DNA from: a virus
Virus record (IMG/VR): IMGVR_UViG_3300031539_000312
Span: 1-24,109 of that record
DNA length: 24,109 nucleotides
Strand: one strand, 5' to 3'
The notes under the pieces are model-generated. The model was not told where the DNA came from and did no database searches. It worked only from the letters and a program-made list of their open reading frames with translations. A program made the translations under genes and the position numbers. Numbering within the stretch: position 1 is the first letter of the stretch; each line of letters opens with the position of its first letter. Below, piece after piece: positions 3,638-5,632 of the stretch.

Positions 3638-3789
3638 TGGTTTTTCTCCTTGTTTTCAGTTAATCCACTCAGAATGATTTCCAGGTGGGCCAACAATTCC
3701 CTGTACTTGTTTTCCCAATCGTCCCGCTCGGCTGTCAATTTAATAACCATTTGCTGTAACTCGTGGTATTCCTCAAAACGGATTTCCAT
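3634..3789 (-). CDS. 51-residue coiled-coil protein
   Basis: Very small gene fitted exactly between its neighbours: its ATG overlaps the methyltransferase stop (TGATG) and its TGA overlaps the next GTG. The product starts MEIRFEEYHELQQMV and continues with LTAERDDWENKYRELLAHLE, a single amphipathic helix. The LTAERDDW stretch matches the EAERDEL block found in the other small coiled-coil genes at 4499-5632, so it belongs to the same mosaic group. Its ribosome site (AAAGGACGG) lies inside a 27-nt sequence that is repeated exactly at 5409-5435. Function unknown. Confidence 0.7.
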   Translation of the reverse strand: MEIRFEEYHELQQMVIKLTAERDDWENKYRELLAHLEIILSGLTENKEKNQ

Positions 3790-3813
3790 CACCCACCGTC
3801 CTTTCCGGGGTTG
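3787..3813 (-). repeat. 27-nt junction repeat, copy A1 (copy A2 at 5409-5435)
   Basis: Exactly identical to 5409-5435. It encodes the end of the upstream protein (NPGKDGG), its TGA stop, the AAAGGACGG ribosome site and the overlapping ATG of the next gene. In A1 the upstream gene is the methyltransferase; in A2 it is a coiled-coil gene. Confidence 0.85.
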
Positions 3814-4502
3814 GCATCCATGATCAATCTCCCAACATACTCCGCTACCTGCGGCACTACGGCGTTTCCGAGTCCTCTAAGTCTGTCCATCTTTCGGGGA
3901 ACCCCATCATCCACTCGAATATTGAGGGATGCGGGCTTCCGCCCGTCCCAAACATCTCCTGGAACCGGAGAAAAGCCGGCCACTTTTTCATTGATGGCGA
4001 GCAGTGATTCGCTGTCGCCGTTGGCGTTGGCAACCACAAAACATCTCCGCCGGCGGCAGGGTGCCCCGAACCAGCTGGAACAGAGTCGAATCGCAGTTGT
4101 GACATAGCCAAAACCACCGAGGTCTTTTCTGACATAGGGGGTCCACGCCTTCCATCTTGGTGAGTTTTCAACCACAACCCAGTCCGGGCGTAGCTCTTTA
4201 ACGATTCTCCGATACTCCCGCCACAGGCCGGATTTTTCCCCCGCAAGCCCGGCGCGGGGTCCCGCCGTATTCGCCGAACTGATATCCTGACAGGGGAACC
4301 CGCCAGCAATCAAGTCCACTTGACCTAGGTTGTGCGCTCCGCACTCCTTGATGTCACCGAATTTCGGTACATTCGGCCAGTGTTTTGCCAGCACCTTCTG
4401 GCAGTAATCATCAATTTCGACCTGCCAGGCACATTCCATCCCCGCCCGCTCAAGGCCCAGGTCTATTCCACCTATGCCAGCGAACAGGGAGCCGAACCTC
4501 AC
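3789..4502 (-). CDS. C5-cytosine DNA methyltransferase (short phage form)
   Basis: Methylates cytosine at C5 in a short target sequence, most likely to protect phage DNA from host restriction. The product is 237 residues. Motif I is FAGIGGIDLGLE (7-18), motif IV GGFPCQDIS with catalytic Cys71, motif VI VVENS (110-114, Ser replacing the usual Val of ENV), motif VIII APCRRRRCFVVA (Cys149 replaces the usual Gln), and motif X LRGLGNAVVPQVAEYVG (209-224). The target-recognition region between VIII and X is only about 50 residues, short even for phage enzymes, so specificity cannot be read. The start is GTG 4502 behind AGGAGG, coupled to the upstream gene by GTGA. A second open frame runs through it (see 3857-4135). 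No cognate endonuclease gene is next to it. Confidence 0.93.
   Translation of the reverse strand: MRFGSLFAGIGGIDLGLERAGMECAWQVEIDDYCQKVLAKHWPNVPKFGDIKECGAHNLGQVDLIAGGFPCQDISSANTAGPRAGLAGEKSGLWREYRRIVKELRPDWVVVENSPRWKAWTPYVRKDLGGFGYVTTAIRLCSSWFGAPCRRRRCFVVANANGDSESLLAINEKVAGFSPVPGDVWDGRKPASLNIRVDDGVPRKMDRLRGLGNAVVPQVAEYVGRLIMDANPGKDGG
3857..4135 (-). other. Second open frame inside the methyltransferase gene, resembling an alternative methyltransferase C-terminus
   Basis: The +1 frame relative to the methyltransferase is open from 4309 down to 3857 (150 codons), with an internal ATG at 4135. Its translation contains DVLWLPTPTATANHCSP and, at the end, SIFEWMMGFPERWTDLED before SETP and the stop. 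Many phage and bacterial C5-methyltransferases end in just this pattern: WPTPTA, a linker, then EWLMGFPxGWTDL. Here the same DNA encodes VVANANG and DGVPRKMDRLRGLGNAVVP in the main frame. No good ribosome site precedes 4135 (GGAAGG is about 13 nt away). It is either an overprinted gene, a frameshift extension, or a relic of how the two C-terminal types arose. Expression is unproven. Confidence 0.35.
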
Positions 4503-4537
4503 TCCCCCTCCTTTCCCTGGTTGCGCTTGGCGAGGAT
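4499..4537 (-). repeat. 39-nt junction repeat, copy B1 (copy B2 at 4878-4916)
   Basis: Matches 4878-4916 at 38 of 39 positions. It encodes KRNQGKEGE, the TGA stop, AGGAGG and the next start. A third, more diverged copy covers about 4677-4698 and encodes GKEEE. Confidence 0.85.
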
Positions 4538-4678: not shown

Positions 4679-4878
4679 CACTCCTCCTCCTTCCCGGTGT
4701 CAGCGGGCAGGAAATCAGCCGACATAATGCACCGGGGACAAGTTATTTCCATTCTTGCGCAATCAGGGAATAATTCCCAGTGGTTGCCCTTCATTTTCTT
4801 TCCGCACGCCAGGACATCCATGTACAAATACACATGAATCAACGGCCTACTTGTATTAAGTGCCCGTGCTTTCATCAT
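4678..4878 (-). CDS. Small cysteine-containing protein, possible zinc binder
   Basis: A 66-residue protein from ATG 4878 (overlapping the previous stop) behind AGGAGG; ATG 4875 is equally well placed. It reads MMKARALNTSRPLIHVYLYM at the start, then CGKKMKGNHWELFPDCARME and CPRC. Cys in CGKK, PDCA and CPRC could together hold a zinc ion, but no named family is recognised. It ends in GKEEE, the same acidic tail type as its neighbours, encoded by the same junction sequence that supplies the next ribosome site. Confidence 0.65.
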   Translation of the reverse strand: MMKARALNTSRPLIHVYLYMDVLACGKKMKGNHWELFPDCARMEITCPRCIMSADFLPADTGKEEE

Positions 4879-5303
4879 CACTCCCCCTCCTTTCCCTGGT
4901 TGCGCTTGGTGAGGATGGCGTCAATGCGTTCCAGGTTGTCCCTTCCAGACCTTGCTATTGAGTTTTTCGCAAGTTCGCAGTGTGATTCGATCACGCCAAC
5001 TTTGCCGGTGACCATACATTTTCTTCTTGTGTGCCAGTTGTGCGGGTTGGCGTAGAATTCAAGACATTCTCGGATTCCGTATTCTCGGTTTATCTCATCC
5101 CTCACCGCCTCCAGCTTGGCCCGCAGTTCGTCCCGCTCGGCCTCGGCCTTGTATCGCTTGTTGCGTGCGCAAGTCAACGAGGTATCCGAACAACTTAGGT
5201 CGGCCCTAACTTCTGCTAGGTCTTTGTCCAACTGCATAACTCGTTCGAAAAGATACCGTTCGTTTTCCGCCCGCAGTTCGGCCGGTTGCTTTTCTTTAGA
5301 CAT
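4878..5303 (-). CDS. Coiled-coil protein with conserved C-terminal half (Ea22-like mosaic group)
   Basis: A 141-residue protein from ATG 5303. The first 70 residues are a coiled coil (AELRAENERYLFERVMQLDK, then EAERDELRAKLEAVRDEI). The second half carries ECLEFYANPHNW and a short region with scattered Cys and His (HTRRKCMVTG, ESHCELA), then a helix and the tail LTKRNQGKEGE. The ECLEFYANPxNW phrase is familiar from small phage proteins of unknown function. The block EAERDELRAKLEAVRDE is shared with the gene at 5411, and the last 39 nt are shared with 4499-4537 except for one base. The ribosome site is weak (GTAGGTG). The gene follows the only sizeable gap in the leftward operon, about 107 nt. 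Confidence 0.75.
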   Translation of the reverse strand: MSKEKQPAELRAENERYLFERVMQLDKDLAEVRADLSCSDTSLTCARNKRYKAEAERDELRAKLEAVRDEINREYGIRECLEFYANPHNWHTRRKCMVTGKVGVIESHCELAKNSIARSGRDNLERIDAILTKRNQGKEGE

Positions 5304-5410: not shown

Positions 5411-5632
5411 TCACCCACCGTCCTTTCCGGGGTTGAGCGCATATTGAATGTGCTGAATTGACTGCGGAATAATTGATTCTTCTTCCCTGTTCGCATTCCA
5501 TTCTTGCAAGGCCATCTCCATGACGGCGGGCCATGCTTCCCTCACAGCCTCCAGTTGCGCCTCGAGTTCGTCCCGCTCGGCCTCAAGCTCGGCGATGCGG
5601 GCTTGGTCTTCCTCATACATATCTGGTAACAT
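5411..5632 (-). CDS. Coiled-coil protein (Ea22-like mosaic group)
   Basis: A 73-residue protein from ATG 5632, chosen because AAAGGAG lies just upstream and the ATG overlaps the stop of the small membrane gene (TAATG). It reads MLPDMYEEDQARIAELEAER, then DELEAQLEAVREAWPAV: a coiled coil made of the same blocks as its downstream neighbours. The middle is helical (MEMALQEWNANREEE) and the end is ALNPGKDGG, identical in the last seven residues to the methyltransferase tail. The 27 nt covering that tail and stop recur exactly at 3787-3813. Function unknown. Confidence 0.7.
   Translation of the reverse strand: MLPDMYEEDQARIAELEAERDELEAQLEAVREAWPAVMEMALQEWNANREEESIIPQSIQHIQYALNPGKDGG

Follow-up and report, generated by a model that had tools for sequence, protein, structure and literature searches.

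Lee, Kam and Shaw reportedly found in 1995 that the gene for the larger polypeptide of the methyltransferase M.EcoHK31I also encodes the smaller one, in a different frame. M.EcoHK31I (YGGCCR) has been called naturally split (PMC3439449), and its two polypeptides make up one enzyme: the larger one holds motifs I-VIII and X, the smaller one holds motif IX (PMC3404938), and in the literature the predicted recognition domain is assigned to the larger polypeptide. M.AquI (CYCGRG) is an alpha/beta C5-methyltransferase in which the small subunit carries both motif IX and motif X (PMC3404938).

In this study, we describe a locus on the minus strand of a virus record of 24,109 bases (henceforth the window, meaning the whole stretch of DNA that was analysed), whose head maturation, terminase and portal genes lie on the plus strand. 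As in M.EcoHK31I, the larger polypeptide of the window has motifs I-VIII and X and lacks motif IX, and motif IX is found in a second, predicted polypeptide, as GSPHPSIFEWMMGFPERWTD; the comparison is one of architecture, not of sequence. The main apparent departure concerns the conserved recognition segment, which lies here in the predicted smaller polypeptide, read in the +1 frame, whereas in M.EcoHK31I it has been placed in the larger one, a published placement that is itself a prediction. In addition, and unlike M.EcoHK31I, the gene described here belongs to a phage. With M.AquI, it shares a C5-methyltransferase that is divided in the recognition region to give two polypeptides; motif X of the window is, however, in frame 0, and the combination of motifs IX and X in the small subunit is not found.

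An arrangement that does resemble M.AquI exists in the Corndog-type Mycobacterium phage Firecracker (L032, 759-1704), where gp6 and gp5 are the overlapping-frame halves of one C5-methyltransferase. Frame 0 stops after motif VIII, and the separately annotated +1 gene (gp5) holds the recognition segment, motif IX and motif X, the latter being the feature shared with M.AquI. Ordinary monomeric phage C5-methyltransferases (Rctr41k ydiP, L006) have the same catalytic domain, motif IX and motif X, but differ in having IX and X in one frame (LTPTECERLQGFPDGWTD...YRQLGNAV) and a +1 frame that is not open.

Two readings of one minus-strand locus

The original prediction, made from the sequence of the window, had called attention to a segment that can be read as a methyltransferase C-terminus in two frames. 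Both readings exist at the coordinates that it gave, on the minus strand, and the sequences that it quoted are correct. Frame 0 (...VVANANG...DGVPRKMDRLRGLGNAVVPQ) matches the C5-cytosine DNA methyltransferase family PF00145 over residues 2-166 (E=6e-38), contains the catalytic-domain motifs I, IV (PC), VI (EN) and VIII, and carries motif X as GLGNAVVPQ. The +1 frame reads LWLPTPTATA...EWMMGFPERWTDLEDSETP, with SPHPSIFEWMMGFPERWTDLEDSETP as its C-terminal end, and terminates in SETP*. Hereafter, the frame 0 polypeptide is called alpha and the putative +1 polypeptide is called beta. The features of the locus, in window coordinates, are the following:

3789..4502, minus strand: frame 0 gene, alpha-type polypeptide of 237 aa with a GTG start; C5-methyltransferase motifs I-VIII and X.
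4507..4514, minus strand: Shine-Dalgarno site AAAGGAGG for the frame 0 gene, read from the sequence, just 5' of the GTG at 4502.
3857..4309, minus strand: +1 overlapping ORF for a putative beta-type polypeptide, open over 150 codons, which is the maximum length; +1 stops are excluded between motifs IV and IX in relatives.
3875..4039, minus strand: +1 segment LWLPTPT...WTDLE, target-recognition segment and motif IX; identity 71-73% with the +1 frames of L357 and L358 versus 53-58% in frame 0, z about 9.
3881..3940, minus strand: +1 motif IX, GSPHPSIFEWMMGFPERWTD; the family profile aligns with ordinary motif IX (hhalign probability 87%, E=3.8e-6).
3876..3962, minus strand: frame 0 residues 181-209, a low-confidence linker that overlaps the +1 motif IX together with the residues immediately preceding this motif; pLDDT <50.
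3852..3875, minus strand: frame 0 motif X, GLGNAVVP; frame 0 profile against ordinary motif X, probability 95.5%, E=1.5e-8.
4133..4135, minus strand: in-frame +1 ATG, a possible alternative start suggested by the sequence; the 92-residue product would keep the recognition segment and motif IX.
4312-4310, minus strand: +1 TGA codon; the close relative L357 is open at the same place.

No convincing Shine-Dalgarno site was found upstream of the TTG at 4309 in the +1 frame of the window. Given the TGA at 4312-4310, beta of the window may be shortened or differently started.

A 39-base element is found in four copies at the ends of minus-strand genes of the window (3789-3827, 4499-4537, 4878-4916 and 5411-5449). 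The copies are 62-97% alike, and the element encodes the last residues of the gene and contains a Shine-Dalgarno-like GGAAAGGA.

Distribution of the +1 frame among related loci

With the +1 protein as tblastn query, methyltransferase genes of three Pseudomonas phages, PS-1, Shamal and Marin, were matched in their +1 frames (E from 1e-7 to 2e-6), with weaker matches in Paenibacillus phage Lily, where the match is an annotated internal gene, and in a Klebsiella phage. The shifted translation thus matches real, conserved sequences. Scans of viral and genome contigs yielded several hundred loci; locus counts include some repeated contigs, and 157 dereplicated loci were used for statistics. Among 233 loci that had both an EWLMG-type motif and a recognisable catalytic domain, the motif was in +1 relative to the catalytic frame in 231, so that the two readings share the same DNA, and frame 0 remained open past the motif in 227 of these 231; the other two loci look like indels. 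Such a pattern is at odds with the proposal that the two readings represent alternative C-termini of two types of methyltransferase. When the scan was extended with the subtype of the window, the motif was in +1 in 80 of 80 cases.

Because loci fetched by a +1 query are biased towards the motif, the key test, that of +1 stop codons (see below), was redone on loci fetched by frame 0 only. Among 101 loci fetched in this way, the +1 motif or a variant was detected in 98. Of the remaining three, L017 and L022 carry motif IX in their frame 0; the third, L025, has neither, and its frame 0 is short and interrupted. Seven loci without a visible catalytic domain, most of them near a contig end, carry motif X in the other frame. 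Free-standing +1 genes without a methyltransferase were not found among the surveyed loci. In these sequences, conservation of the two-frame arrangement was found at hundreds of loci, in phages and in bacteria, and the arrangement is often mis-annotated.

Individual loci with other arrangements were also detected. In-frame fusions of the catalytic domain with the +1 end type were seen in L111 and L208 only; their catalytic matches lie in two frames, and both cases were discarded as probable indels. In L101 the +1 frame runs into motif X, which may also reflect an indel. In L239, a +1 segment of the WVEWLMG type is located at 2648, about 730 bases past the methyltransferase stop, and may belong to a second, degenerate or rearranged gene.

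Selection on the +1 frame across the family

The shifted reading of a conserved protein is partly predictable, and one might think of the +1 frame as a passive shadow of the frame 0 protein that yields no product. All the nulls used here keep the frame 0 protein. For stop codons, synonymous codons were shuffled within each gene with preservation of the frame 0 protein and of codon usage. In 61 non-redundant relatives fetched by frame 0 alone, a single +1 stop was observed between motifs IV and IX versus 196 expected. Before motif IV, 98 +1 stops were observed in the same 61 loci and 94 were expected, and stops in the +2 frame showed no depletion (470 versus 469 expected). In a larger set, the +1 stops observed and expected in three successive regions were 4 versus 160, 0 versus 225, and 0 versus 167. 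When the boundary of stop exclusion was located column by column, it proved to be sharp, a few codons ahead of VDLICGGFPCQ. The second frame of the homologues is, therefore, not freely broken by stops.

Ordinary methyltransferases, examined as a control, do show a mild deficit of +1 stops (200 in 28 loci versus 282 expected), as a passive shadow would have it. The synonymous-shuffle null is not perfect, but the mild deficit of the control is far from the effect seen in the two-frame family.

Differences at four-fold degenerate sites amounted to 0.627 before the overlap, 0.336 in the catalytic part of the overlap and 0.282 in the recognition segment; synonymous divergence inside the overlap is about half. 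The contrast gave p=5e-148 in the largest similarity bin, although pairs are non-independent and the p-values are only indicative. Between motifs VIII and IX, outside the motif, the mean excess pairwise similarity score was 32.4 in +1, 5.0 in frame 0 and 3.5 in +2. In other words, the recognition segment shows conservation in +1 but very little in frame 0. This conservation, the near absence of +1 stops under nulls that keep the frame 0 protein, and the z of about 9 obtained in the window make a passive shadow hardly credible.

Signals for translation initiation were also examined. A +1 start codon preceded by a Shine-Dalgarno match of at least 5 bases was found in 63 loci versus 17.6 expected, and a 7-base match was found in 16 loci versus 1.5 expected; no enrichment was detected for +2 start codons with a Shine-Dalgarno match (6 versus 4.0 expected). 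The +1 enrichment is seen shortly 5' of motif IV. In a group of loci rich in Firmicutes, AAGGAG-N6-ATG is spelled by the frame 0 codons for KESFYER. A single conserved +1 start codon was not found, and start positions vary between subfamilies. Altogether, sequence comparison indicates that the +1 frame is protein-coding across the family and under strong purifying selection; dual coding can be considered established at this level.

Selection on the +1 frame of the window

For the window, synonymous shuffles that kept the frame 0 protein and its codon usage were used as the null. A +1 frame with 150 stop-free codons was obtained in 0.34% of the shuffles, and the mean was 4.35 stops. When the C-terminal 55 residues of the +1 frame were compared with the +1 frames of three relatives, identities were 40/55 (L357), 39/55 (L358) and 31/54, versus 32/55, 28/53 and 23/51, respectively, for frame 0 of the same DNA. 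The +1 excess over shuffled synonymous codons had z values of 9.1 to 9.5 (9.3 for L357 and 9.1 for L358). The N-terminal half of the +1 frame (motif IV to VIII) showed no conservation beyond that imposed by frame 0 (z = 0.2, -0.3 and 1.6); between L357 and L358 themselves, the +1 N-terminal half that they have in common gave z=4.0.

Hence, the C-terminal half of the window's +1 frame is under clear selection and the N-terminal half is not demonstrably so; segment 3875..4039 of the minus strand is the portion with demonstrated selection. On these alignments, the C-terminal part of the predicted beta polypeptide of the window can be regarded as well supported. The frame equivalence put forward in the original prediction is real. 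Its further suggestion that the alternative frame may still be in use agrees with strong purifying selection in the family and with selection in the C-terminal half of the window's +1 frame; in the N-terminal half, z is about 0.

Motif content and predicted folds

Profile comparison indicated that the two frames hold different parts of an ordinary enzyme. The +1 profile aligned with columns 77-96 of the ordinary methyltransferase profile (motif IX, E=3.8e-6) and the frame 0 profile aligned with columns 96-131 of the same profile (motif X, E=1.5e-8), each E-value coming from a single profile comparison. The motif IX consensus is GQLNPTWVEWLMGFPLGWTD in +1 and RRLTPTECERLQGFPDGWTD in ordinary enzymes. 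Classical motif IX was absent from frame 0 of the compact relatives checked, and from frame 0 of the window. The motif split between the frames is, therefore, firm, and the idea that one end type was derived from the other must be abandoned: the two readings are complementary, with motif IX in +1 and motif X in frame 0, in neighbouring profile columns.

In the AlphaFold model of frame 0, pLDDT was >90 for the C-terminal helix and for most residues of the catalytic part, while residues 181-209 were below 50 and predicted to be disordered. Comparison of this model with M.HhaI gave Z=22 over model residues 1-237, and the fold predicted for alpha is one without the small domain. For beta, the mean pLDDT was 60.8 and the pTM 0.26; values of about 65-78 were reached in the last 50-60 residues only, and this low-confidence model was too poor for a fold search. 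A poor prediction for beta alone might be expected if it is a fragment that needs a partner. Searches with +1 proteins gave nothing meaningful in Pfam or NCBIfam, and the +1 reading of the window was without a Pfam match; the best PHROG match of +1 was a family whose member from phage VIPECOMC04 is itself a +1 reading.

A QLTLF-like sequence, which resembles the bacterial beta-clamp-binding motif, was found close to the beginning of the +1 protein, shortly before motif IV, in 32 of 147 loci (22%; for example L024, L220, L238 and L263) versus 0.6 expected. The window and many GC-rich members do not have this sequence. Its presence would fit a +1 protein with another function, for instance a regulator or a replication-associated factor, overlapping a self-sufficient methyltransferase. 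However, motif IX is in +1 and missing in frame 0, the two relatives with motif IX in frame 0 are without the +1 motif, and the +1 protein of Firecracker carries motif X too. Another function for the +1 protein is, in consequence, quite improbable.

The same motif content could be produced from one gene by programmed ribosomal frameshifting in the methyltransferase message, yielding a frame 0/+1 fusion and no separately started polypeptide. Frameshifting would account for a window without a clear +1 start, and for the observation that motif IX is out of frame with both of its neighbours in most loci. The strong enrichment of +1 starts with Shine-Dalgarno sites just upstream of motif IV is, however, difficult to reconcile with it. 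Furthermore, the exclusion of +1 stops already begins about 100 codons before the recognition segment, an opening that would not be required for a shift located after motif VIII, and a single shift would lose motif X. We thus consider frameshifting unlikely.

A putative two-polypeptide methyltransferase

Our preferred reading, which we hold to be very probable, is that this locus specifies a cytosine-5 DNA methyltransferase made of two polypeptides, as in M.EcoHK31I, and that the coding sequence of the second polypeptide lies within that of the first, in the +1 frame. Alpha would fold as the catalytic, AdoMet-binding large domain, in which a flexible linker connects motifs I-VIII to the helix of motif X. 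Beta would supply what is missing of the small domain, namely motif IX and the segment for target recognition. The start codon of beta would, in many relatives, be separate and preceded by a Shine-Dalgarno site, shortly 5' of motif IV, and beta would end near motif X. Alpha and beta would then assemble into one active enzyme; for the window, this would mean that beta is produced, associates with alpha and methylates DNA together with it. A plausible history is that an ordinary gene lost the frame of the segment containing the recognition region and motif IX, and kept it as a separate polypeptide.

Annotation and significance

The PHROG family phrog_1008 ('DNA methyltransferase'), the 'Mte8-like protein' of phage K1ind1 and the 'g62 internal gene' of phage Lily all derive from the +1 frame of methyltransferase genes with such an overlap. 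They are annotated as methyltransferases or as hypothetical, and no record was found that describes any of the three as a second subunit. The proteins that the original prediction took for another C-terminal type appear to be themselves +1 readings of such genes, phrog_1008 being an example, and not an independent class of enzymes. In virus Rctr197k (L005, 1086-1766), the +1 frame was deposited as a conserved hypothetical protein and the overlapping methyltransferase was omitted. Gene callers pick one frame or the other, and as a consequence the two halves of a single enzyme are listed in databases as two 'methyltransferase' families. A report of a widespread two-frame arrangement was not found in the literature searched, which was largely that available without subscription.

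What had been described as a peculiarity of one or two restriction-modification enzymes thus appears to be widespread, occurring in phages and in genomes from many phyla. A more speculative view, which we offer tentatively, is that the two-frame alpha/beta enzyme might be a major and largely unrecognised architecture for cytosine methylation in phages and prophages across many bacterial phyla, with the recognition polypeptide lying wholly inside the catalytic gene, and with a subset possibly tethered to the replication clamp of the host by the QLTLF-like N-terminus. In practical terms, cloning such a gene in a single frame may yield an inactive protein. About 100-250 codons are under selection in two frames, so that those who study overlapping genes have in this family a natural data set of unusual size, and the residence of target specificity in the overlapping frame becomes testable.
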